24,154 nt of DNA, from contig JAIVFH010000368.1 in NCBI GenBank assembly GCA_025765595.1, positions 1 to 24,154 on the forward strand, in the 5' to 3' direction. This stretch comes from Obelidium mucronatum (Eukaryota; Chytridiomycota; Chytridiomycetes; Chytridiales; Chytriomycetaceae). The translations under genes and the position numbers were made by a program. The notes under the pieces are model-generated. The model saw nothing but the letters and a program-made list of their open reading frames with translations, had not been told where the DNA came from and made no database searches. Below are positions 3,025 to 24,154 of this stretch, in pieces (position 1 is the stretch's first letter; every line of letters starts with the position of its first letter).

Positions 3025-3747
3025 ATGCCACAGAAAATCCAAGCACTTCTTACTCTCATTCTCGCTGTCTCTGTATCCGCTGATACTTGGTGTATCTTCA
3101 AGCAGGATATTACTACCACCAAAGTATACGCTGGATCCCTTCAGCCTTCAGGCAGAGCAACACAAGCAACACTTACCTTTGGAGAAAAGTGCAAGCAAGG
3201 CCCTTGGTACAACTACTCGTGTATTCCTTGTGGCCCTCAGACCCCCGTCGTCGCTGAGACCTTGAAGAGCTTTGCGCCGCCAAGTTGTGGATTCAAGAGG
3301 TGAGAGCCTGAGCTTTTGTCAAAGTCCACCCCTTCCAAATTCACAATTACAAAATATATTATTAGATGCAATTCGAACGGCTGCTCGGTTCCTGGAAACT
3401 ACAATCCCTCCATCCCAGGCACAGGTCTCTCCGTGAAGCAATTCTGGGCAGAGTCATGCCTCCAACACGATTTCTGCTATGCCGATCGCGCAGCTTCTTC
3501 ATCCGCTTCATCATTCGCGAAAACGCAGTCAGATTGCGATGATATTTTGAGAAAGAATATGGAGGCTCAGTGTGACACGTTGGATGGAGCCAGTTGGGCT
3601 GGGTGCAAGGCTGTGGCGGGATTAATTCGCGCTGGGTTGTCTGTCATCAAGAATGAGTTTGATAATGATCGTGCCAAGTGTGTCAATGGCGATATTTGTG
3701 GGTCTGTTGGAGTATGTTCAGCCAAGTCTTCTGCTTGTCCCTTTTGA
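3025..3747 (+). CDS. secreted phospholipase A2-like protein (fungal/bacterial type), 218 aa
   Basis: Exons 3025-3299 and 3366-3747 join in phase 2 across a 66-bp intron (GTGAGA...TTATTAG), giving 218 residues. A signal peptide is evident (hydrophobic residues about 6-17, probable cleavage after VSA near residue 19). The catalytic motif is CLQHDFCY, with His126 and Asp127 as the expected His-Asp pair and flanking cysteines (C123, C129) as in small secreted PLA2s. The family hydrolyses the sn-2 acyl bond of glycerophospholipids, usually with calcium. The N-terminal ~90 residues form a separate Cys-containing region with no domain I recognise. The protein is probably exported and disulfide-bonded. 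The gene follows the transposase on the same strand, which looks incidental. Confidence 0.8.
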
Positions 3748-3874: not shown

Positions 3875-5987
3875 ATGACCGGCACCACTGCCCTTCCCCT
3901 CGAGGTCTTCCAAGCAATCCTCGTTCATCTTCCAGTCGACAAGTTTTTGATGCAAGTTGCTTTTGCCTCCAAGCAGTTGGCTCAAGTCATCTTCAGCCTT
4001 GAGTTTGCGCACCTCCACTTTCGCCATCGTATCACTCTCCACGCAGCCGAAATAGATCGAGGCGCAATCTATCGAAAGCTCGGCGTTGACTCTTGGAAGG
4101 ACCTTTCCGCCAACTACCAGGCCCTCTTTTATTGCCTTGTGCCATTGGAGATTGCAAAGTGGATGAAAGCTCGCGCTTATGTCTTCAGCAAACTGCCTCC
4201 TGAAAAAGCATTGGCTTATGTCAGGGCAATACTGTGTTATCCGCAGTGGTACAACTCGGAAGCCAGGCATTTGACGCTGTCGGCTGCTATACATGATGGT
4301 CATGTTGACGCCGCAATCGCCTTAGTAGAAGATTCTGCCAGAGATCGAGTCTATATAAACGACTATTGCATCGAATCAGCTGCTAGATTTGGAGATGTTG
4401 GGCTTGTTAGAATCCTTATCGACTATCAAGAGGCAAGAGGTGAATCAAGTCAAACGACGAGTTTTGCGTGTTTTTGACATTAGTTTCATTGCAGGAAGAT
4501 TGTATGACTACAATCGCGCCTTTGAAAGTGCGTCGAGAGAAGGACATTTGCCAGTCGTGAAACTCCTCCTTGATTTGGGATTGGTTGACACAAAATCAAG
4601 CATTGATTTCGGGATCCGACAAGCGTCAGCCTGTGGGCATGTCACCCTTTTGGAGTTTTTTCTTGGATTAGAGAATGCTGATCCAGCTGCGGCCGACAAC
4701 GACGCCATTAAATTGGCGTCAACGTATGGGAATGCAGATGTGGTTCGAATTCTTCTTGATTCTGGGAAAGTAGATCCTGCGCCCAGCAACAACTACGCCA
4801 TTCGACGTGCAGCGGAAAAGGGGTACACTGCTGTTGTGAAGCTTCTCCTTGAATCGAAAGCAGTGGACCCTGCCGCAGATAACAATTCCGCTATTCGATT
4901 TGCATCAAACCGGGGATATGAAGATATTGTTAAGCTTTTGCTTGATTCCGGGCTAGTTGACCCTTCCGTTAACAATAACGAATGCATCAAATCTGCATCA
5001 TTGAACGGTCATACATCCGTTGTGAAACTTCTTATTGACACTGGAAGGGTTGATCTGACTGCCGAGAACAACTGGGCTATTCACAAGGCGTCAAAATACG
5101 GACACCTCTCTGTTGTCAAACTACTTGTTGAGCATGGTGCTAATCCAGCTGATGAGAATAACGAAAGCATTCGGGCATCATATGCCGGATATAGCGATAT
5201 TGTGAAGTTCCTTCTGGACTCAGGACTTGTGGACCCATCTGTCAACGACAACATCTGCATTCGAAACGCGTGCATGCAAGGTCACGAAACTGTAGTACGC
5301 CTCCTGCTAGAATCAGGCAAAGTGGATCCATCCGCCAAAAATAACGAATCTATAGCCAACGCTGCTGATCGTGGGCACGTCGCAATTGTCCGACTTCTGC
5401 TTGAGTCAAAGCGAGTCGACCCATCGGCAAATGGCGAAGCCGCACTTCGATTGGCGTGTAAATCCGACCATGAAGCTGTCGTGAAGTTGCTGCTTCAGAC
5501 AGGAAAAGTGGATCCAGCTGCAAACAAAAACTACCCACTTCGATGGGCTGTCTTTTGTGGATGTACAAATATAGTGCGCCTTCTTTATGAAACTGGGAGG
5601 GTAAATCTAGCTGACGTGAACAATGATTGCATAAGAGTTGCATCGAAATATGGTTATTCAGCTATTGTCAGATTCCTTCTCGAATCGGGAAAAGTGGATC
5701 CGACAGTCAATGACAACTATTGCATTCGAATCGCATCAAAGAATGGGCACACACCCGTAGTTAAGCTTCTTCTTGACTCTGGACTGGTCGATCCAGCAGC
5801 CAGAAACAATGCAGCTATCAGAGAAGCGTCAAAGCGAGGGCACGAAGCTGTTGTGAGACTTCTCCTAGAATCGCGGAGAGTGGATCCCACTGTTGATGGA
5901 AATTATTGCCTTCAAATTGCAACGAAAAAGAGAATGAAGCAGATCGTTGCTCTGCTTCTCTCGAGCGATTATGGATTGAGCTCTTGA
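3875..5987 (+). CDS. F-box-like protein with about 18 ankyrin repeats, 685 aa
   Basis: Exons 3875-4439 and 4495-5987 join in phase 1 across a 55-bp intron (GTGAAT...TTGCAG), giving 685 residues. Residues about 7-41 (LPLEVFQAILVHLP...) resemble an F-box, the segment that docks a protein on the Skp1-cullin ubiquitin ligase. From about residue 130 to the end there are ~18 ankyrin repeats with consensus NNxxIRxASxxGHxxVVKLLLDSGxVDP. Most repeats are 31 residues rather than the canonical 33, and two near the middle (around nt 5060-5250) are 30. The array is highly regular, suggesting recent expansion or homogenisation. By analogy it would be a substrate-recruiting ubiquitin ligase subunit; the target is unknown. 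A polyadenylation signal is at about 6012-6017. Confidence 0.8.
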
Positions 5988-6128: not shown

Positions 6129-6418
6129 CTATTTTTCTTTAGCTTTCTTAAGTTGATTCAGAACAGCGTCCAACCCATTCTTGAACTTTTCTCCATCCCC
6201 GAACCCAACAAAGTCCAGAGCAGCATGTTGTTTGTTTGCTGTGACTTCCAATCGTTCAAATTTATCGTGTTGATCGTTTATCAGAATAAAATGCTGAAGG
6301 CATTCAACTGTATTTCCATTTGTTTTGACATTGCTCAATTGAAATACGCGACAAGACTCAGCACCGCTGTTTGCTGTTGGTGGGTGAAACAAAAAGAACA
6401 CATTTCCGCGAACAATTG
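6129..6418 (-). pseudogene. severed C-terminal end of family C GPCR1
   Basis: Read on the minus strand, this is the original end of the receptor gene whose body lies at 11426-14435. The frame continues directly from the other side of the transposon: GPCR1 reads ...SYTIV up to the 9-bp target duplication, and this piece resumes TIVRGN... and ends at TAG 6131-6129. About 96 residues are encoded, finishing in a Lys-rich end (LKKAKEK). It aligns with the end of GPCR2 (21324 onward), including the shared DF...GDG region. One target copy plus the two halves gives a 942-bp exon, equal to the GPCR2 last exon after removing its one-base insertion. Cut off from its promoter, this fragment probably yields no normal receptor. 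Confidence 0.88.
6410..6418. repeat. left 9-bp target site duplication
   Basis: GAACAATTG at 6410-6418 immediately precedes the element tip TAGGCTCAG. The same nine bases follow the right tip at 11426-11434. Removing the element and one copy restores the GPCR1 reading frame. Confidence 0.92.
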
Positions 6419-6820
6419 TAGGCTCAGTGTCAGCCTTGCTCTCGGAACTCTCAAAAAGAAAAAATAAAAAAAATTTCCATTTTCGAGCCCCAGCGAGAAG
6501 GCTGATCGACAATCTTCAAAACCCGCCAACTCCATTTTTTGTAGCGGAAGAACCAGCGGATGGATCTTCCTCAAATTCGGCACAGGTGTAGTTCAACTTA
6601 TTTTATTAGTTTTGGCGGCCTTTTGGCCACGTGTTTCTGACAGTTTCCGTTTGAATAGTGGGGCCGCGTTTCAGACGTCTCCAGTGGACTCAAAACACGC
6701 TATATGCTCCTATGTCTTGTTTTTTTTTCAGTATATCCAATATATCAACATATTCTATTACCGTTCGACACGTTGATTTGACCTGGAAATCATTTTTTGT
6801 TCTGTCCGGAAACACATCAA
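6419..6820 (+). repeat. left 402-bp terminal inverted repeat, also 5' leader of the DUF6589-like gene
   Basis: The match to the reverse complement of 11024-11425 runs from tip TAGGCTC to AACACATCAA, where the copies diverge (C at 6821). No mismatch was found over the stretches compared. Near its inner end is a T-run followed by CAG (6720-6731), a strong candidate 3' splice site, and CAG|GTGTAGT near 6586 could be a donor, suggesting a leader intron. An ATG at 6712 is in frame with the downstream gene but would fall in that intron. The tip is a weak palindrome (GGCT cagtgtc AGCC). Confidence 0.93.
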
Positions 6821-6846
6821 CTCAACTGAAATCAACAGTTGCATTT

Positions 6847-9345
6847 ATGATACGCGACAGCCGCGGGATGTTTCGGGGCAAGGCCGACCCACTGACTCAA
6901 GATCCAAGCGACGTCGGTACTGAGTCCGAAACTTCACCTGAACGTAGCCACAGCCGCAAAAAGGCATCAGTTGGACTGGAAACTCCTCTTTCCAATCAAC
7001 GCCCAACAAGAAACACATCAAATCCATTTTCGACCCATCAAATGGGTTGCCCAATCCCGTCCATGAGTTTGGAAGAGAGATTGAACGATTCTCGGGATGC
7101 CAATTTAGGATCATCCTTCACAACTCATTTACGTGCAACTGGACAATCAGAGCATTCTGCAAAATTCCGTGCAGCAATGGCAGCGGTAAAATCGGCGGCT
7201 GCACAAAAAGCAAGCTTCAAATTTCCGGAAATTGAGGCTCGAGTGGCCATGTTGTCCATTGATGACCAGCTGCAACTGTTGCAGAATCTCTTCAACGCTT
7301 TGCCTCTTCCAAAGCAACGCGATTTTCTTTTGAATAATGCATCTGCTCTCTCGAAAATCGAAATCAAAGAATGCCTGAAGGTTGATATTGCTGCTCCAAC
7401 CGTTGTTAACCGCTTGAATGTCAGTGTGCTTCTCGAATCTTGGGAGGCCAGTGCGCCCTTTATCTCGTCTCTCATCGGAATGCTTGTTGGACATGAAAAA
7501 CCAAAGCTTATTCTCATCCTTGGAATCATTCTTTTTTCTGCATCTCAGAAGTACAATCTTCTGCAGTCGGAGATTGGTTTGATCTTGTACTCTAATGGCG
7601 CTTCGCAGAATCTCGTAAAACTAATGAATAGTATGGGTGTATCAGTTGGAAATGATACAATTCTTGACCGGCTTGTTGACATGAAACAGCAAGCTCTCGA
7701 TCTGATTCCAAAAACATTCCGTTCAAATAGTATTCTCTTGATCCACGACAATGTGGAGCGATACAACAAGACATACCAAAAGACTCAAGGAAACCAAAAC
7801 CAGCTTGTGTCCCAAACGCTGCGTGGATTCATTCTTATCACACATGATCCAGCAATGCTACAACCCGCTGTGCCAATTAAGCCGCCATCACCATCCAATA
7901 TTGTTGCCGACGCTTGCGAGTTGGCCTGGTATCATTCTCAGACTTTTAATGAATTGTACAATCTCATCATCAAAGAATGCGCGGAGTTCAAAGACCTATC
8001 TTCAAGGCACAACCATCCTAACCGCCCCCATAGACCAACTGGTATCCTGCCTTTGCCCATTATGGACGAACAAGAAATGACTACCAATGGATCCATTCGG
8101 ATTGGGGAGCAATACACTAAAGACTTCAATATTCCGCACAACAAATGTATAAAAGTCCCTTTATTTGGAGATTTGGGGACAGTCACATCTGTTCGCTCTG
8201 CAATCAATGAGCGCAAACATGAGTGGGGTAGCTCTGATGTTGAGAAGCTGCAACACCTGATGCCCATCTATGGAGATTTTCATCTTGGAATGGCCGTTGA
8301 TAAAGCCCAAGTCTCCGCCATGGGCTGGGAGCCATCCTTTCCAGGAACTATTGCTTGGTTTGCTCGAATTCAAAACAAGAATATCAATGCCAAGAAAGCG
8401 ACATTCTACGAGATGCAAGATGTGCTAAACGGCTCCCTTAGCGCCTATGTTGTTGCACTTGCGGACTCTATTACAGTGGATTACGCCAATGACCTGTCGG
8501 AACTGCAGTCAGGTAGTCAAGAAAAGCTGGACTACATTGTGAATACTCTCCTGCTTCATGTTAACAGAGCAGTCTATCAATTGAAGCCGATTGTAAACAA
8601 AGGAAAGCGTGCTACGGAGTATTCTCCTTTGGAAACCCACCCTTTCCGCAACTACATGCTGCAATTTATACGCTTGCGACTTCAATCATTGGTCTTCTAC
8701 GATTGCATTCGCTATGGTGACGGAGAAGGCGTGAATATTATGCATAAGCTGTTCTTGCCATTGCTCAAGAGACACTCCAAAAAATACGCACAGGGAACTG
8801 TGCGTCAGTTGTGGGATTTATCAATGATGACTCCTCGGGAACGAGGAATATGCGTACAAAACGCGTTTTTAAACTCAAAAGGACTTGTGAACTCCTTTTT
8901 TCCCAATGACTTGGGAATGGAGCATGAAGTCCTTGCCATGAAGTCAGTTCAATCCAAAGCAGGAAGTAACCGCAACTGGAATCATACCCAAACAATTTCT
9001 ATGACTGCATCTCATGTCTGTAGCTTGACTAGCTCTCTTTTTGACCACTTGGACATTCCAAGAAGACGAGCATATCATCACGACGTGGATACAAAAAAAG
9101 ACAAGGAGACCATGATGTTTGATGTCAAATCTCAGATGAATCGAGTACAAGGCTACTTCAAAGTGGGTGAATATGCCTTTAAACCTGTGCTGGAAGTGGG
9201 TTACAAGGAGTTAGTCAAGGATGGATATATTGCTCGGCAACTGAAGAACTTTTTTTGTGGATCTGGGGATGAGGATGATATTGAGGAGTTAGATGAACGG
9301 GTGTTTGACGAGGATGGTGTTGAAATTTTTGATTTAACGAAATAA
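6847..9345 (+). CDS. DUF6589-like protein, candidate transposase of the element, ~832 aa
   Basis: The first in-frame ATG inside the TIR is at 6847, giving 832 residues. The frame is also open through the TIR from an ATG at 6712 (+45 residues), so the start is unsettled. Residues 1-100 are Ser/Thr/Pro-rich and look disordered. The middle and C-terminal parts resemble DUF6589 proteins as I recall them: an IHDN segment (D301), FGDLGTV (D442), YGDFHLGM (D477, H479), RYGDGEG (D625, E627), a LSMMTPRERG block and NDLGMEHE (D688, E692, H693). Acidic residues spaced like this could form an RNase H-like DDE/D centre, but that is inference; DUF6589 has no assigned function I can cite. It converges on the RecQ gene with a 23-bp gap. 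No intron is needed in the body. It could instead be an accessory DNA-binding factor. Confidence 0.7.
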   Translation: MIRDSRGMFRGKADPLTQDPSDVGTESETSPERSHSRKKASVGLETPLSNQRPTRNTSNPFSTHQMGCPIPSMSLEERLNDSRDANLGSSFTTHLRATGQSEHSAKFRAAMAAVKSAAAQKASFKFPEIEARVAMLSIDDQLQLLQNLFNALPLPKQRDFLLNNASALSKIEIKECLKVDIAAPTVVNRLNVSVLLESWEASAPFISSLIGMLVGHEKPKLILILGIILFSASQKYNLLQSEIGLILYSNGASQNLVKLMNSMGVSVGNDTILDRLVDMKQQALDLIPKTFRSNSILLIHDNVERYNKTYQKTQGNQNQLVSQTLRGFILITHDPAMLQPAVPIKPPSPSNIVADACELAWYHSQTFNELYNLIIKECAEFKDLSSRHNHPNRPHRPTGILPLPIMDEQEMTTNGSIRIGEQYTKDFNIPHNKCIKVPLFGDLGTVTSVRSAINERKHEWGSSDVEKLQHLMPIYGDFHLGMAVDKAQVSAMGWEPSFPGTIAWFARIQNKNINAKKATFYEMQDVLNGSLSAYVVALADSITVDYANDLSELQSGSQEKLDYIVNTLLLHVNRAVYQLKPIVNKGKRATEYSPLETHPFRNYMLQFIRLRLQSLVFYDCIRYGDGEGVNIMHKLFLPLLKRHSKKYAQGTVRQLWDLSMMTPRERGICVQNAFLNSKGLVNSFFPNDLGMEHEVLAMKSVQSKAGSNRNWNHTQTISMTASHVCSLTSSLFDHLDIPRRRAYHHDVDTKKDKETMMFDVKSQMNRVQGYFKVGEYAFKPVLEVGYKELVKDGYIARQLKNFFCGSGDEDDIEELDERVFDEDGVEIFDLTK

Positions 9346-9368
9346 TAATTGCGTTACTTTTTATTTGG
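9346..9368. terminator. 23-bp gap between convergent stop codons in the element
   Basis: Only 23 bp separate the two stop codons of the element's genes, so each 3' UTR must run into the other gene's coding end. The gap is AT-rich (starts TAATTGCG) with no clear AATAAA. The transcripts should overlap tail to tail. Confidence 0.5.
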
Positions 9369-11024
9369 TCAATTCGGCATTTTCTTTAACTCCTTCAAAT
9401 ATGCAACAACAAGTGTTTTTGCTTCAATTTTCCATTTGTCTTCGAAACTATCAATCCAATCAACAAATGAGTCGAGAACCACACCCTTCAGATCTCTGCA
9501 AATATCATCGATGACTTCCTGTGGGAATCTGCAAAGTCCCAACTCCCATGGTACTCCAATCAAACAGCTTTCCCGCCATTCTGACAGCTCCGAAAACAGT
9601 TTGATAGATTCTTCAACTGTCAATCCACATTGCGAGCGAATGTGCCTTTTTTGTTTGAGCAATGGAGTGTTGGAAACATATGGAATCAAGCCAGACTGTG
9701 CTATAGTTGGTTTACGAGACTCACAAGCATCACAGCACCGGTCATTTGGTACCGGATCAAGCCCCTTAAAGTACCCCAAAAGAACCTTCCTTCGGCAAAC
9801 TGGATTTGAAGTTGAAGGTGTTGATGCAAAGAGAGAGTACACCTCTCTGTTGGTGGCCTTACTCTCCTTCAACGCCACAGAATCGCTTTTCTTGTCTGAT
9901 AAATCCTGGAGGGAGTGGAAGAAGAGACAACGACTGGGCAATCCATCCCTTCCAGCCCTCCCAAATTCCTGGGCAGCATTGCAAAATGATACTGGAGTCT
10001 TGTAATGAACAACAGTTCTAATTGAAGGATGGTCCAAGCCCTGGCCCAGCATTTGAGTGGTGCAAATAACCTTCAATTGATTAGGGTTTTCTCGAATCAG
10101 GCCTAGTACTGCGTTTTTGTGGGATTCCGAAGACAAGGCAGTTAAGTGAGTGAGCACGGGGGGGTAATTGGAGATGCCAGCTGAAAGGTACGTGTAAATC
10201 TTGTTCAGTGTGGTCTTTGAATCGCAGAAGAGGACCAGAACAAATACACTCGGATCAAAAGTTTTTGTTTCGAGAGCTATTTTGATGAATCCAAGATCCT
10301 TTTGCATCTCCTTCCGCTCCTGGACATCGTAAAACAAGTTTGGCCGATCCACACACCCAATAATTTCGACAAATCCTGGTCTCAATCTCAGTCGATTGCA
10401 CATCTTGTTGTACATTGACTTTGGAACCGTTGCTGAAGCTGCAATGAAAGGAATATCCTTGAAATGAACACGAATGTTCTCCAGATTCAAATAGTCTTGT
10501 CTCCAAACATCTCCAGCGTTGGTCATTTCGTGCCATTCGTCTACTGCAATCGCGAACGCAAATTTTTGAATGACTTTGAGTATCTTCATGTCCTTTCCTC
10601 CAAGAATACTTGTTAAAAATTCCGGAGTCATCCACACAACATCAACATTTCCACTCTCAAGCAATTCCAGTGTTGAAGAATTCCCAATCTTGTTCATATC
10701 CAATGATCCAAAGGCTGCCGGTCGAAGGGGTATGTCTGATTTCTCCAAATTTGCCATTTGGTCAATCATGATTGCCAAGAGTGGAGATATAATGAACAAA
10801 ACCGATTTTCGATCACCAGAATCCACCATTCTTTGCATGTGAGCCAGCAGAGACAGGTAAAAAGTGTACGTCTTGCCTCCGCCGGTCCTTTGAATCAATA
10901 CGCAGTCTTTCCCATTCAACACAGCCTTGACGCAAGCAATTTGATAGTCACGAGGAGCACTCTCGTAGTACTTGGCGGTTAGCAGGATGCAGACTTCCAA
11001 GATGGGATCATGTTCTAGTGACAT
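9369..11024 (-). CDS. RecQ-family DNA helicase of the transposon, 551 aa
   Basis: The ATG begins at 11024, the last base of the TIR, giving 551 residues without introns. Superfamily 2 motifs are in order: motif 0 RDYQ (Q28), Walker A TGGGKT (47-52), DEWH (162-165, in place of RecQ DEAH), SAT (197-199), motif V GQGLDHPSIRTVVHY (327-341) and motif VI QEFGRAGRDG (352-361). A RecQ zinc-binding region follows (C410, C430, C431, C434, with CRRKVLLGYF). The family unwinds DNA 3'-to-5' using ATP. No HRDC domain is evident and the C-terminal ~110 residues are unassigned. Lying within intact TIRs, it is most likely part of the transposition machinery, for example opening ends or remodelling intermediates, rather than a host repair gene. 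The frame is also open upstream into the TIR (ATG equivalent at about 11132), so a longer N-terminus is possible. Confidence 0.92.
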   Translation of the reverse strand: MSLEHDPILEVCILLTAKYYESAPRDYQIACVKAVLNGKDCVLIQRTGGGKTYTFYLSLLAHMQRMVDSGDRKSVLFIISPLLAIMIDQMANLEKSDIPLRPAAFGSLDMNKIGNSSTLELLESGNVDVVWMTPEFLTSILGGKDMKILKVIQKFAFAIAVDEWHEMTNAGDVWRQDYLNLENIRVHFKDIPFIAASATVPKSMYNKMCNRLRLRPGFVEIIGCVDRPNLFYDVQERKEMQKDLGFIKIALETKTFDPSVFVLVLFCDSKTTLNKIYTYLSAGISNYPPVLTHLTALSSESHKNAVLGLIRENPNQLKVICTTQMLGQGLDHPSIRTVVHYKTPVSFCNAAQEFGRAGRDGLPSRCLFFHSLQDLSDKKSDSVALKESKATNREVYSLFASTPSTSNPVCRRKVLLGYFKGLDPVPNDRCCDACESRKPTIAQSGLIPYVSNTPLLKQKRHIRSQCGLTVEESIKLFSELSEWRESCLIGVPWELGLCRFPQEVIDDICRDLKGVVLDSFVDWIDSFEDKWKIEAKTLVVAYLKELKKMPN

Positions 11025-11425
11025 TGATGTGTTTCCGGACAGAACAAAAAATGATTTCCAGGTCAAATCAACGTGTCGAACGGTAATAGAATATGTTGAT
11101 ATATTGGATATACTGAAAAAAAAACAAGACATAGGAGCATATAGCGTGTTTTGAGTCCACTGGAGACGTCTGAAACGCGGCCCCACTATTCAAACGGAAA
11201 CTGTCAGAAACACGTGGCCAAAAGGCCGCCAAAACTAATAAAATAAGTTGAACTACACCTGTGCCGAATTTGAGGAAGATCCATCCGCTGGTTCTTCCGC
11301 TACAAAAAATGGAGTTGGCGGGTTTTGAAGATTGTCGATCAGCCTTCTCGCTGGGGCTCGAAAATGGAAATTTTTTTTATTTTTTCTTTTTGAGAGTTCC
11401 GAGAGCAAGGCTGACACTGAGCCTA
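11024..11425 (-). repeat. right 402-bp terminal inverted repeat, also 5' leader of the RecQ gene
   Basis: Inverted copy of 6419-6820 with the same length. Its inner end coincides with the A of the RecQ start codon (11024). Read on the minus strand it carries the same T-run plus CAG acceptor-like site as the left copy. Its outer part is also read by the truncated GPCR1, which gains a foreign tail ending at TAG 11255-11253. Confidence 0.93.
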
Positions 11426-14400
11426 GAACAATTGTATAAGAAACGCCCCCGCGCACCCAATAAGCTGGAGCGTACCACTCCTTGACACAATAAATAACAT
11501 AATACACTTGCGAGGATTTGACGCGGGCTTTTTTAAGACTTGAACCGACAGCTATCACGGATTGCATTTGAAGCATTGACAAGCTATTGGCGGATTTCAG
11601 AGACCGCTCCGACTCTTTCTCGCTCTCTGGTTCCAGCTGACTTTTCATTACCAAGCTCCATTTCAATTTACTGAAATGAATCCCATTGTCCCCAAATATT
11701 TCTGCTTTAATCAATCGTGTGAGTCTTGGAACAGCTTGCATCAATATTGGTACTGTGGTATTAAAAAACACGAGGGTAGATACTTTGATCTGATATTGAA
11801 TCGCAATTTCCTGGTCCATTGTCAGGGCAAGAATCACCGAAATTGTTAGGCAGATAGAGGTGACAAGCAATAAGGTGAATTCCGTATGTGTTGGCCCTAC
11901 ATTATGGGATTTCACTGTAACCGTGACAAGAGCGCAATAGACTAGAGAATTATATATCCACATGGCATAGACAAGTTTCGGACTCTCCGCTGATCGGTCA
12001 GTGCACGTGAATTCAATGAAATGATCTGGAAGAGTCTTTTCCACCACATATATTTGCGATAAATATGACCAAGCACATAGCAATATCTAAATTAAAAAAA
12101 TGCCTTGGTCGATTGGATGGAGTCTTGAAAATAAGGTAAACTGTCGACTCACAAGCTCTCCAGCAACCAATCCACCCACAAAACGCATCCAGAACCAGTC
12201 TCGAACCGCATATTTGGGCAGAATCGTTTTGGCTCCGTAAATCAAAACTACTCTCAAGTTCTTGAAAATAATCGCAGCCGACATGATGGCAAATGCCAGC
12301 GATTGTAACCAAACTGCCAGGTGACACTTATATACACTGGGTCTCCCGATATATAGTAAATTAGAAACGTATGACGGAATTGACCCAGCGGCTAGTACGG
12401 ACATCAATGGAACAGAGCCAGATCGTATTGCTGGGTTACGTTGAAAAACGGCAATCAAGAGGAGGAACAAGCCAGCAAAGAAAACACCCACTCCTGCGAA
12501 AATCTTGAGGATAAAAGCGTTCTGACTGTCAGGCCAAATCAGTAGAGTTTCATAGACAGGTCCATCGAGAGGTGGGATAGATGTCCCATCAAAGAATATC
12601 GGTAACTGCCCATCTATATACTCGATTCGCGTGGAATCGATATCAGTCGATGCAAATGCTGTGTTCGGTGTGATTAAGGAGACTCTATCAATTAAAATGG
12701 GAAGAATCACCTGTCGTCATCAAGCTTTTGGTGCCCTCGCAATAAGAAAGTGTGTAAGATCTAGTAACGGCAAAATTCGGTTTTAAATCACTTTATAGTA
12801 TTGACCATGAACACCAACGTCGCCAAATCGCCATTCCGTGTCAATTGAACGGGATCTCCAAGAATGCCGCGATATCCAGTTTTCATGAATAGAGTTGAAT
12901 TCATGAAGCCGTTCAATTTTCTGGTAGATGCCATTTCAATAGTCATACTTGGGTTTTTTAATAGCTGATTTTGTCGGTTGAAAAACAAAGCAAACAAAAA
13001 AGGTAAGAAAGTCAAAAGCCTTACATTATGCAAGCCATGCGCGAATAACATAGGACAAGTAAACATTTGGTTGATATTGAAGTATCGCTGAATTTCATCG
13101 GTCGTAAACAGCAATCCCCACGGTGATTGGAACCTGTTGATGGCGTCTACTATGTTTTGCTGTTGTAGATTCATATTTTCAGTCATTCCGGATGCACCAA
13201 AGGTGCTCATCAAGCCACGAGCATTTCGAAAGTATACATCGCCCCAAAGATCGACGGCATTTTCTCTTTGAACTGGTATATTATCCGTGAACCACACATA
13301 TTCTGGGCCGACAAACTTTTTGCGACTGGTCGCATCGACAAAAAGTGGGGGCAGCTGAGCGAGTGAATTAAATGACGTTCAATAACTTACTCAGCTAGTT
13401 CAAAGTAAATGTACGACGCCAACTCAGGAGTTGCACATAATATGATGTACCTTGGAGCCACTTTTAACCAAAGAAAATAAAAACGCCACACAAACCTTGC
13501 GTCGACATGACCTAGAGTCTCCGCTACGTAATCTAAATCTGGCGGATCAGTCATGACGACAATCTTGGCCAGAATTCTAAAGTTCCATGCCTCCAAAACG
13601 CTTGCAATATATCCGCAGTCTAACACAATGAAAGAAAGTATAAATTGGTCAGGAAAATTGTAGAGCATCAAAGCTATTACTTGAACTGGGGTCTGAGAAT
13701 GGAACAGTTTCAATCATTGCCACTCGACGCACATTCCACTTTCGAAGTACCAATGCGATTGATTCAGCGTATCCCGTCAATGCCATGGTCTGAAAGTAAT
13801 AACCGTATTTGTTTCGATCCCACATTGAAGATTGAAGCGTCGACCCAGCGCATTGCGGAATTTGGAAGTAGCTATACACTTCTGCATCTGCTGCCAAATC
13901 GCGGGGTAAAAAGTCTCCAAATACAGCTATAACATCTGATGTGAAATTCAATAGATTCAGCGAACAACCTAGGAAAGCAGTTTCGATTGAAGAAGACCTG
14001 GGTGGTGAATTGCAATCTCTTGTGCAACAAGCATCGCAGCTCCCGGACTCGAAGCGCCGGGACTAGAAGCCCTCTGACGATCCAAATACGCGTTGTTATT
14101 GAATCTTTTAATCTTGATTGTTGTGTTTGGAAGGATAGATGGGTCCATGTTGATCTGATCAATGGCAAATTTCATGGCTTGCTGATTCCAATACCACCAC
14201 GATGAATATCCCCACAAACTCATGTCGCTCATCCTTCCGATGTCGATTCTATCATATCCAGAAACGACGAGAGAGCCATTGTACTTCAGTTGTGGAAACC
14301 TGTCATTAGTTAGAGGTGAGCACAGTGGTTATCTTGTCGTCGCTCAAGTACTTGCCATGAATAAGGACCTATGAATCCCACCGTAATCGAAGACTGTGAT

Positions 14401-21323: not shown

Positions 21324-24154
21324 TTATGCCATTGCATCCTTCAAACCAAGAATGCTGTCTCCAAATATACTGCCATCTCCCTCCTTTGTAAAATCAATCA
21401 AAACATTTATACCGTTCTTATCCAAGAATTTCACGCGCTCTTGCCGAACTTTCCCAGATTCCAGAACTGATACACTAAGTGACTTGCGAGTCAAATTACC
21501 TAAGTCCAGGACAAATGCAACAGGATTGGAGCTCAAATCACTTTTCACTGGAAGAATTTGAACATACGCTGTTCTTCTCACAAATGCAACTGATGCAACT
21601 CCATACTTCCAGGACTTTGAAAGCGGCCATGTGTTTACAGAATACGCGACGCTAAATACTCTGCTGAACTTTCCATTCTGTCTTGATGCCACCAGAGTTC
21701 CAAAGCCTGACTGGTGATTTACCCATGGCCCGTCTTTTTGCGACAACGCCGATCCAGTTTGTGTTGACATTGACTGTCGCTGCATCTGACTTTTGGTTTC
21801 TTTGGAATAATTGTTTCCTTGACCAACAATGCTCCACCTGACTCTACTTCCGATTGCATCTTTCTGGAAGATTTCCGATTGCAGTAACGATAACACACGA
21901 GGAACAGCTTGTAACAACAAAGGAATGCTTGTGTTGCCGAAAATAATAATGGCTTCTCCGATAAGGTATGTGTTATTACTGGCTTTTTGATTGCCCCAAG
22001 AGGACTAAGTAACAGAAGAAATAGCGAAAGAGGCAGATACAATGAGCAGCATGGTGAATTCCGAGTGAATGGGCGGGACAGCATGGGATTTATACGTCAC
22101 CCAAAATAGGAATAGCAGAATCAGAATATTGTAAACCCACAATGCAGCCCCCGAGGAAATCCCAGACACTGATACATAACTGCATTGATACTGAATTACA
22201 TACCCAGGCAACATTTTCGAGGAAACTCTGCCTTTGGTAAACTGTATTCCAGATCCATAAAAGTACCTGACAGCTTGCTTGTTAGTCGTTGCAAGCTTTC
22301 AAAGCATACACAAACCAGCTCAAGAGCAAGTGCACAGCCGGTTCCAATCAGCCACTGCTACATCCCGTACCATATACTTTGGTAGGACTTTATTTGACGC
22401 GTAAATGAGGGAAACTCGGAAATTGCGGGATATCATTGCTCCAGAAATCAAAACAAATGATGATAATTGTAACCAGAGTTTGGCTTGACAGCTGAAAACA
22501 GTTGGAACCCCAATATACATTAGGTTTGACACATACGCTGGAATGGTTCCAAGCGCCAGGATCGACAAGAATGGCACAGAGCCAGAGCGAATGACGACTT
22601 TCTTTTGATACGCCTGGATGAGGACCAAAAAAATCACAGCCACAATTATGCCACTAATACAGAAGCCAGTGAGAATGAAGGCGCTGGTACTATCTCTTGC
22701 AACTATGGAATAAGTATACAAAGGACCATTTGGTGGCGGAATTGATGTTCCATCGAAAAATGTTAGAACTGTTCCATTGATGGGTGTGATTTTGGTCTGG
22801 TCTATATCTGTGACTGCCCACTCTATTTTCTAATGGTTATTGTCCCTTCATTCATTGCATTAGACACTTACTGACAGATGTCAAATATTTGTCCATGCCA
22901 TCAACACACTGAATGTAAAACGTTCTAATCGGGAATAAACTGTCAATAACTGATTAAAACCTGGTAGAAAATTCTTACGAAGACAGTCCACCAGTTTCGG
23001 AGAGACTAAGAGGGTCAGCTACAATTCCTCTTACACCGGTATTTTTAAACTGAGACCAGCTTAACTTACTTCTCACATTATTGCCATACGTTTTCATAGA
23101 GAGAAGGGATGGATCTCTTTCAATAAGCTTCAGTGCATGGTGGCTGAATTAAACAAAACGAATAATCATAACATGAAAACAAACATTATGTAACCCAGAC
23201 GCGAAAATTTTTGGGCAATCATGCATATTAATAATGTTAAAATATAGTTCAATATTTGAGCGAGTGAAATTATATGCCCTGCAAAATAAAGCCATTAATT
23301 ATAAAAGAACAGAACTGTTGACAAACCCTTGAGCTGCCTGAATGTCGTTAATTGTTTTAAGAAGGCGCATCTCTTGCCCAAGCATGCTAGGTGTAAATGC
23401 ATTTAATCCATATACGTTCATAAATCCTTTGGCAATTTTATAATAGTCTGGTCCATAAATGTTGTAAGCCAGTGTTGTGTCTGGCTTGTTCATACAGAAC
23501 CAGACAAAATCTTTCCCAACCAGCTGCTGCTTTCTGTGCAACGTTTTATTGGAATACACATATAATTGGTTTCGTTTCAAACTTACTTTGCTAGGCCAAA
23601 GTACACACTGGCTGTTGTGGCAGGACCAGCGCAAAGCACCATGTATCGCGCATCTGCTTGTAAAAGCGTGCTGCTGATTGAAGAAAGGCTTGTTGTTGAC
23701 TTTATAGAAAGCTTGGCCAAAATCAAAAACCCATTCTGCTCCAACACTCTTGAGATTGCCTTGCACCCTGTATTGTGGGTATTTGATGATCAAATAGATA
23801 AAGACAAAGAATACGCACATGATCCATTATCCATCGGGCCTTCATTGATTATAGCCACACGCTTGACATTCCATGATTTTAGAGTCAACATAATGGATCG
23901 GGCAAAGCTATTCACTGAAAAAACCAGTTGTTAGATTGGTAATTTCTGGCGTAAGTATAATAGTTTGCTCACAAGACGGCACTGTTTGAAAGTAAAATGG
24001 GTAATTGTCTCGAGAATCAAGAATAGGAGTGAGAATTGATCCTGTGCACATCGGAATTTGGTATTGGCCGTACACTTGCCCCCCAAGCGCGGTTCCCCCC
24101 CAGACATTCCCCCAAACACGCAATAATTTCTAGTTGATGAGCGGAACCTTTTCA
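21324..24154 (-). pseudogene. family C (GABA-B-like) GPCR2 with frameshifts and an in-frame stop; 5' end outside window
   Basis: Paralogue of GPCR1 in the same orientation. Exons (minus): about 24120-23973 (5' boundary uncertain), 23914-23819, 23767-23587, 23533-23327, 23278-23195, 23143-23070, 23027-22979, 22924-22872, 22822-22316, 22266-21324; introns 42-58 bp and all phases agree through the extracellular part. The ligand-binding region is intact (YFQT..., WNVKRVAII, DARYMVLCAGP, DFVWF). The 7TM part carries FFDGTSIPPP, RSGSVPFLS and LPKYMVRD. It has three lesions relative to GPCR1: a 7-nt insertion GTAGCAG (22355-22361), one extra A in an AAA run (22233-22235), and TAG in frame (22007-22005). 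Removing the 7 nt and the 1 nt restores exact phase in both exons. Splicing at the GTAGCAG donor would also keep frame but drop part of a helix. Probably a decaying receptor, unless the lesions are sequencing errors. Confidence 0.85.

Follow-up and report, generated by a model that had tools for sequence, protein, structure and literature searches.

A probable AcademH-like DNA transposon pairing a DUF6589 gene with a RecQ-type helicase gene in the chytrid Obelidium mucronatum

The window (the whole 24,154-nucleotide stretch of an O. mucronatum contig that was analyzed) carries a 5007-bp segment, at positions 6419–11425, that is as good as certain to be a mobile element. We interpret it with good confidence as an AcademH-like DNA transposon that has likely been mobile recently, in which the DUF6589 protein is the predicted DDE transposase and a RecQ-type helicase would unwind DNA.

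Results

The element and its arms

The element is bounded by identical inverted arms of 402 bp; the automatic repeat report gives 405 nt for the arm, an extension over 3 flanking bases of which one is mismatched. The outermost sequence is TAGGCTCAGTGTCAGCC, with its complement at the other end, and GAACAATTG abuts both ends as a 9-bp target site duplication (Table 1). The 402-bp inverted repeats, the 9-bp duplication and the two convergent genes claimed in an earlier note on this DNA were all confirmed in the window.

The gene coordinates assume a start at whichever ATG is closest to the inner edge of each arm, and these starts are putative. For the helicase, the first base of that ATG coincides with the last base of the right arm on its inner side; for DUF6589, 26 bases separate the left arm from the ATG. 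Both frames extend without a stop ∼165 bases into the arms (DUF6589 from 6655, helicase from 11189), so that starts within the arms, and with them a shared N-terminus, are possible. In a related family, on C180, an arm-encoded N-terminal stretch is common to both frames. Both genes probably take their promoter and leader from this common arm sequence. In the diverged copy on C15 the two arms match each other exactly and share the changes that set them off from the main family, namely 2 mismatches and a gap of 1 base, so that one arm may serve as the template for correcting or copying the other.

Table 1. Features of the element and of its insertion site (window coordinates)
Feature	Position	Strand
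Severed C-terminal end of the interrupted host receptor-like gene, placed by the open frame and paralogue alignment over the joined flanks	6129..6409	-
Left target site duplication, 9 bp, GAACAATTG	6410..6418	
Left terminal inverted repeat (402 bp), identical to the right one; from gene position, predicted to hold the promoter and leader for DUF6589	6419..6820	+
Left terminal dyad AGGCT-7-AGCCT, one base in from the end; may be bound by the transposase or fold as a hairpin	6420..6436	+
DUF6589 protein gene, 832 codons from ATG 6847; predicted DDE-type transposase, putatively catalytic	6847..9345	+
RecQ-type superfamily 2 DNA helicase gene, 551 codons from putative start ATG	9369..11024	-
Right terminal inverted repeat (402 bp); from gene position, predicted to hold the promoter and leader for the helicase	11024..11425	-
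Right terminal dyad, placed from the left-end dyad and arm identity	11408..11424	-
Right target site duplication, 9 bp, GAACAATTG	11426..11434	
Adjoining part of the interrupted host gene	11435..12716	-

The interrupted gene

When the flanks of the window copy were joined and one duplication was removed, a frame of 313 residues, open across the junction, was restored. It aligns with a receptor-like paralogue at 21324–22004 of the same window (28% identity over 225 columns, E 7e-16), and the alignment covers both sides of the junction. A distinct reverse-strand frame at 12090–12716 matches 7tm_3, the class C seven-transmembrane receptor model, and is presumably the upstream exon of the interrupted gene; a 7tm_3 match was also found beside the paralogue (22323–22829, reverse strand). 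The open joined frame, the paralogue alignment and the 7tm_3 neighbors together indicate that the insertion severed the C-terminal end of a receptor-like gene, which is probably of class C.

Elsewhere in the window, three forward-strand stretches were recorded: a DDE_Tnp_4 match at 2372–2908 (E 1.7e-06), probably the remnant of a second DNA transposon, a phospholipase A2-like frame at 3304–3744 that falls under the Pfam cut-off, and a long frame for an ankyrin-repeat protein at 4359–5984.

Copies in the genome

With the arm as query, 34 matches were found in the 48.3-Mb genome from which the window comes. Of these, 26 pair up as the two ends of full copies, 13 in number and each on its own contig; the other 8 are partial or decayed (contigs C182, C128, C33, C137, and C412). 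The DUF6589 and helicase frames are full length and stop-free in all 13 copies. Each copy was compared with the window copy over two overlapping stretches that jointly span its length. Nine of the 12 other copies show zero differences, the C158 copy has a single mismatch, the C56 copy has one in each of the two stretches, and the diverged copy on C15 differs in its longer stretch by 16 mismatches and one gap. Since nine of the 12 are unchanged, this family has probably moved very recently.

A perfect 9-bp duplication, each of its own distinct sequence, flanks 11 of the 13 full copies. None was found at the flanks of the copies on C283 and C25. A reciprocal mis-join of these two copies was considered and rejected: by eye, their flanks are unlike each other in either orientation. 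Together with the further copies described below, duplications are present at 16 of 19 elements. In an exploratory reading, noticed after five positions had been inspected, the target begins with a purine and ends with a pyrimidine in 26 of 32 half-sites.

The earlier note held that a transposon would be supported by full copies with other 9-bp duplications and by copies that keep only the ends. The former are the copies just described, and the latter occur as short gene-free derivatives in which both termini are present.

On contig C182, two partial, mirror-image copies of the element lie at 36344–41393 and contain DUF6589 parts only; their arms face each other ∼1.1 kb apart, as in a recombination product or an assembly fold-back.

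Five further families share the gene pair

Diverged elements of five further families were found, on C5 (two copies), C66, C93, and C180, and on C5 near 191 kb. The DUF6589 and helicase genes, in convergent order, are common to all five. In that order, identity to the window DUF6589 protein is 33, 31, 29, 25, and 21%, the protein being aligned in part only for C66, C180, and C5 near 191 kb; identity to the window helicase is 37, 36, 32, 32, and 26%, the C180 helicase frame being shortened.

Inverted matches of ∼312–467 bp flank five of the six further copies, and one of 87 nt flanks the copy near 191 kb. Perfect 9-bp duplications were also found at five of the six (both C5 copies, C93, C180, and C5 near 191 kb). 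For C93 and both C5 copies, a shift of the boundary would give a 10-bp reading, and the duplication near 191 kb, where the right terminus was located and the left one is truncated, came from a search over many boundary pairs and may be due to chance. No duplication was found at the flanks of the C66 element.

Genome-wide, the Pfam DUF6589 profile gave 22 matches. For 20 of these, a helicase match in convergent orientation lies no more than 1 kb away; the exceptions are the two mirror-image fragments on C182. The same profile had no match in 14 control genomes.

Terminal dyads and short derivatives

The outermost dyads read AGGCT/AGCCT in the window family, AGTCT/AGACT in the element near 191 kb and GTCTG/CAGAC in C180; where one family has a G-C pair another has T-A, and the dyad is kept. 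A perfect 5-bp dyad is present at one end in five of the six families, and was equaled by 33 to 110 of 2000 shuffles; C93 was counted at its right end only, its left end differing and lacking part of the dyad. The C66 dyad is of 4 bp and was equaled by 295 of 2000 shuffles. These counts are not independent, because the families are related, and the terminal dyad as a functional feature is only suggestive.

The 17-base terminus was found at 47 places in the genome, and the same pattern read backwards at none. The C66 element bears it twice in tandem at its left end (110382–110415). Short gene-free, MITE-like elements with both termini, related in sequence to the C5 family, were found: one of 144 bp (C376, 13316–13459), with no duplication at its flanks, and two of 79 bp (C219 near 44870 and C558 near 10005), whose flanks agree at 7 of 9 bases by eye. 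The two 79-bp elements are probably one duplicated insertion, because the flanks of one are like those of the other.

The DUF6589 protein is a likely transposase

The window protein matches Pfam DUF6589 (E 2.1e-36), as do the proteins of all six families, and no Pfam transposase model, MULE and hAT included, matched the six family members up to E 1. The aspartate of a DNxE motif is conserved in the four alignment rows that cover it, and DN is present in separate upstream pieces of the other two. The aspartate that follows a glycine (GD) is conserved in all six, as is a phenylalanine-histidine pair 36 residues on. A glutamate stands four residues after an aspartate, and both are conserved in six of six. 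Counted from the ATG at 6847, the candidate acidic residues are D301 (DNxE), D442 (GD), and E692 (the final glutamate). The choice of these three as the triad is a guess, because E407, D624, and D687 (family-alignment numbering) are equally conserved. The conserved D, D, and E could be compatible with a DDE transposase that carries an insertion before the glutamate.

A single-sequence AlphaFold model of 582 residues had a mean pLDDT of 34.6, too low for use, and a profile search of the PDB with DUF6589 gave no match up to E 1. In a large protein collection, of which just the candidates sharing most words with the query were scored, the window protein had no match at E 0.001 (7998 candidates), nor did the 6-row DUF6589 alignment at E 0.01 (7999 candidates). 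The literature searched gave no link between DUF6589 and a transposon: the name was absent, and the Pfam accession appeared only in an optics paper. DUF6589 is likely a transposase, and presumably the counterpart of the Academ transposase. The earlier note's proposal of a transposase from an unstudied family agrees with this, and the absence of the name from that literature fits a family that is unstudied.

The helicase is of RecQ type

The window helicase matches the Pfam models DEAD and Helicase_C, both of which were found in all six families. Its closest relatives in the PDB are BLM (1.8e-29) and bacterial RecQ (8.6e-29), confirming as RecQ-type the gene that the note had called a RecQ helicase. 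The motifs TGxGKT, DExH, and QExxRxGR are invariant in the six family helicases. The cysteines of CRR and CCDxC, candidates for a RecQ zinc-binding module, are present in five of six, and the Pfam zinc model gave weak matches, below the cut-off (E 0.009; three of six members).

Discussion

AcademH was reportedly described by Kojima in 2020 (Mob DNA 11:15). We consider AcademH the most likely home of the element, because the helicase, the duplication length and the element type agree with what is known of AcademH from descriptions rather than from its sequence. Like the element here, AcademH, found in fungi and animals, is a DNA transposon with a DEAD plus Helicase_C helicase; the two domains are assigned to AcademH and KolobokH in the available text of PMC10799480. 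Its target duplications are of 9 or 10 bp, against 3 or 4 for AcademX, a length suggested to be linked to the helicase and the nuclease (PMC10045372, available part), and here 9 bp were found at 16 of 19 elements. AcademH is, however, low-copy in Basidiomycota, Ascomycota, and Mucoromycota (PMC10799480, same part), whereas this genome holds 13 nearly identical copies.

The earlier note's claim of an undescribed system is probably wrong, since helicase-carrying AcademH (PMC10045372) and KolobokH (PMC9587614) are already in print, to judge from the available parts of both papers. That note had allowed for a match to a named superfamily, which would make the element known, and with AcademH and KolobokH described such a match probably, not certainly, exists. 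The element most likely represents a new, apparently recently active family of an already described kind of transposon, AcademH.

In the mechanism that we propose, the DUF6589 protein would bind near the element end, perhaps at the dyad, bring both ends together and then cut, and would join the ends to the target with a 9-base stagger; host repair would fill the stagger and so leave the target duplication. The helicase may open the element ends or the strand-transfer product, and the identical arms may supply each of the convergent genes with an equivalent promoter. Copy number could rise through repair after cut-and-paste movement, or the element could be copied. The two-gene DNA transposon of the earlier note is borne out, and it may move in the cut-and-paste-like manner that the note proposed.

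We regard it as unlikely that DUF6589 is instead a separate transposase family outside Academ, with a RecQ helicase recruited independently and the AcademH likeness due to convergence. Pfam lists DUF6589 as a family of unknown function, and the likeness to Academ rests on descriptions. Recruitment of a RecQ helicase is not unique, because fungal KolobokH and one red-algal Kolobok also carry one (PMC9587614, available part); against this, among the named groups found, the combination of a helicase with a 9-bp duplication is reported for AcademH (PMC10045372, available part). Somewhat less probable still, and speculative, is a version in which DUF6589 forms its own family apart from Academ, movement would need the element's own RecQ helicase to open hairpin-forming ends, and each move would include copying between the arms, which would maintain a single promoter common to both genes.

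A Mutator-like element that has acquired a helicase gene is very improbable. MULEs usually have long inverted repeats and 9-bp duplications, and in both respects the element resembles them, but no MULE, hAT or other Pfam transposase was found up to E 1 in the six family members, all of which match DUF6589. Even less probable is a KolobokH-like element. Kolobok target duplications are TTAA, whereas the 16 duplications here are of 9 bp and differ from one another, with TTAA inside only two of them, and no Kolobok-like Pfam match was found in the six family members. In favor of a KolobokH-like element are the RecQ helicase and its strand: KolobokH, known from fungi only, encodes a RecQ helicase, and in the red-algal Kolobok-1_CCri, too, the RecQ helicase is encoded on the opposite strand (PMC9587614, available part). 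Both are DDE transposons with a RecQ helicase; their TTAA duplications set them apart from the present element. That the segment is a segmental duplication or an assembly mis-join and no transposon has a negligible chance, for although two of the 13 copies have unlike flanks and identical 5-kb copies mis-join easily, 13 full copies on 13 contigs, 11 of them with their own matching 9-bp duplication, rule out chance or mis-join; in addition, the reading frame at the empty site is unbroken and has a paralogue with which it aligns, and the same plan recurs in five diverged families.

Helitrons have a Pif1-type helicase fused to a Rep nuclease, with neither inverted ends nor a target duplication. 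The AcademH-like element shares with them the carriage of a helicase, and has instead a RecQ type, long inverted ends and 9-bp duplications. Multicopy RecQ-like helicase genes are also known at the subtelomeres of one fungal genome (PMC4522978, available part); the helicase gene here is likewise multicopy, but is enclosed by inverted ends that also hold a second gene, and the whole is flanked by target duplications.

These data provide (i) a helicase-carrying DNA transposon that is intact, present in multiple copies and apparently recently mobile; (ii) a likely function, that of a transposase, for DUF6589; and (iii) a system in which it can be tested why certain transposons encode a helicase, because both frames and both ends are intact in 13 copies.
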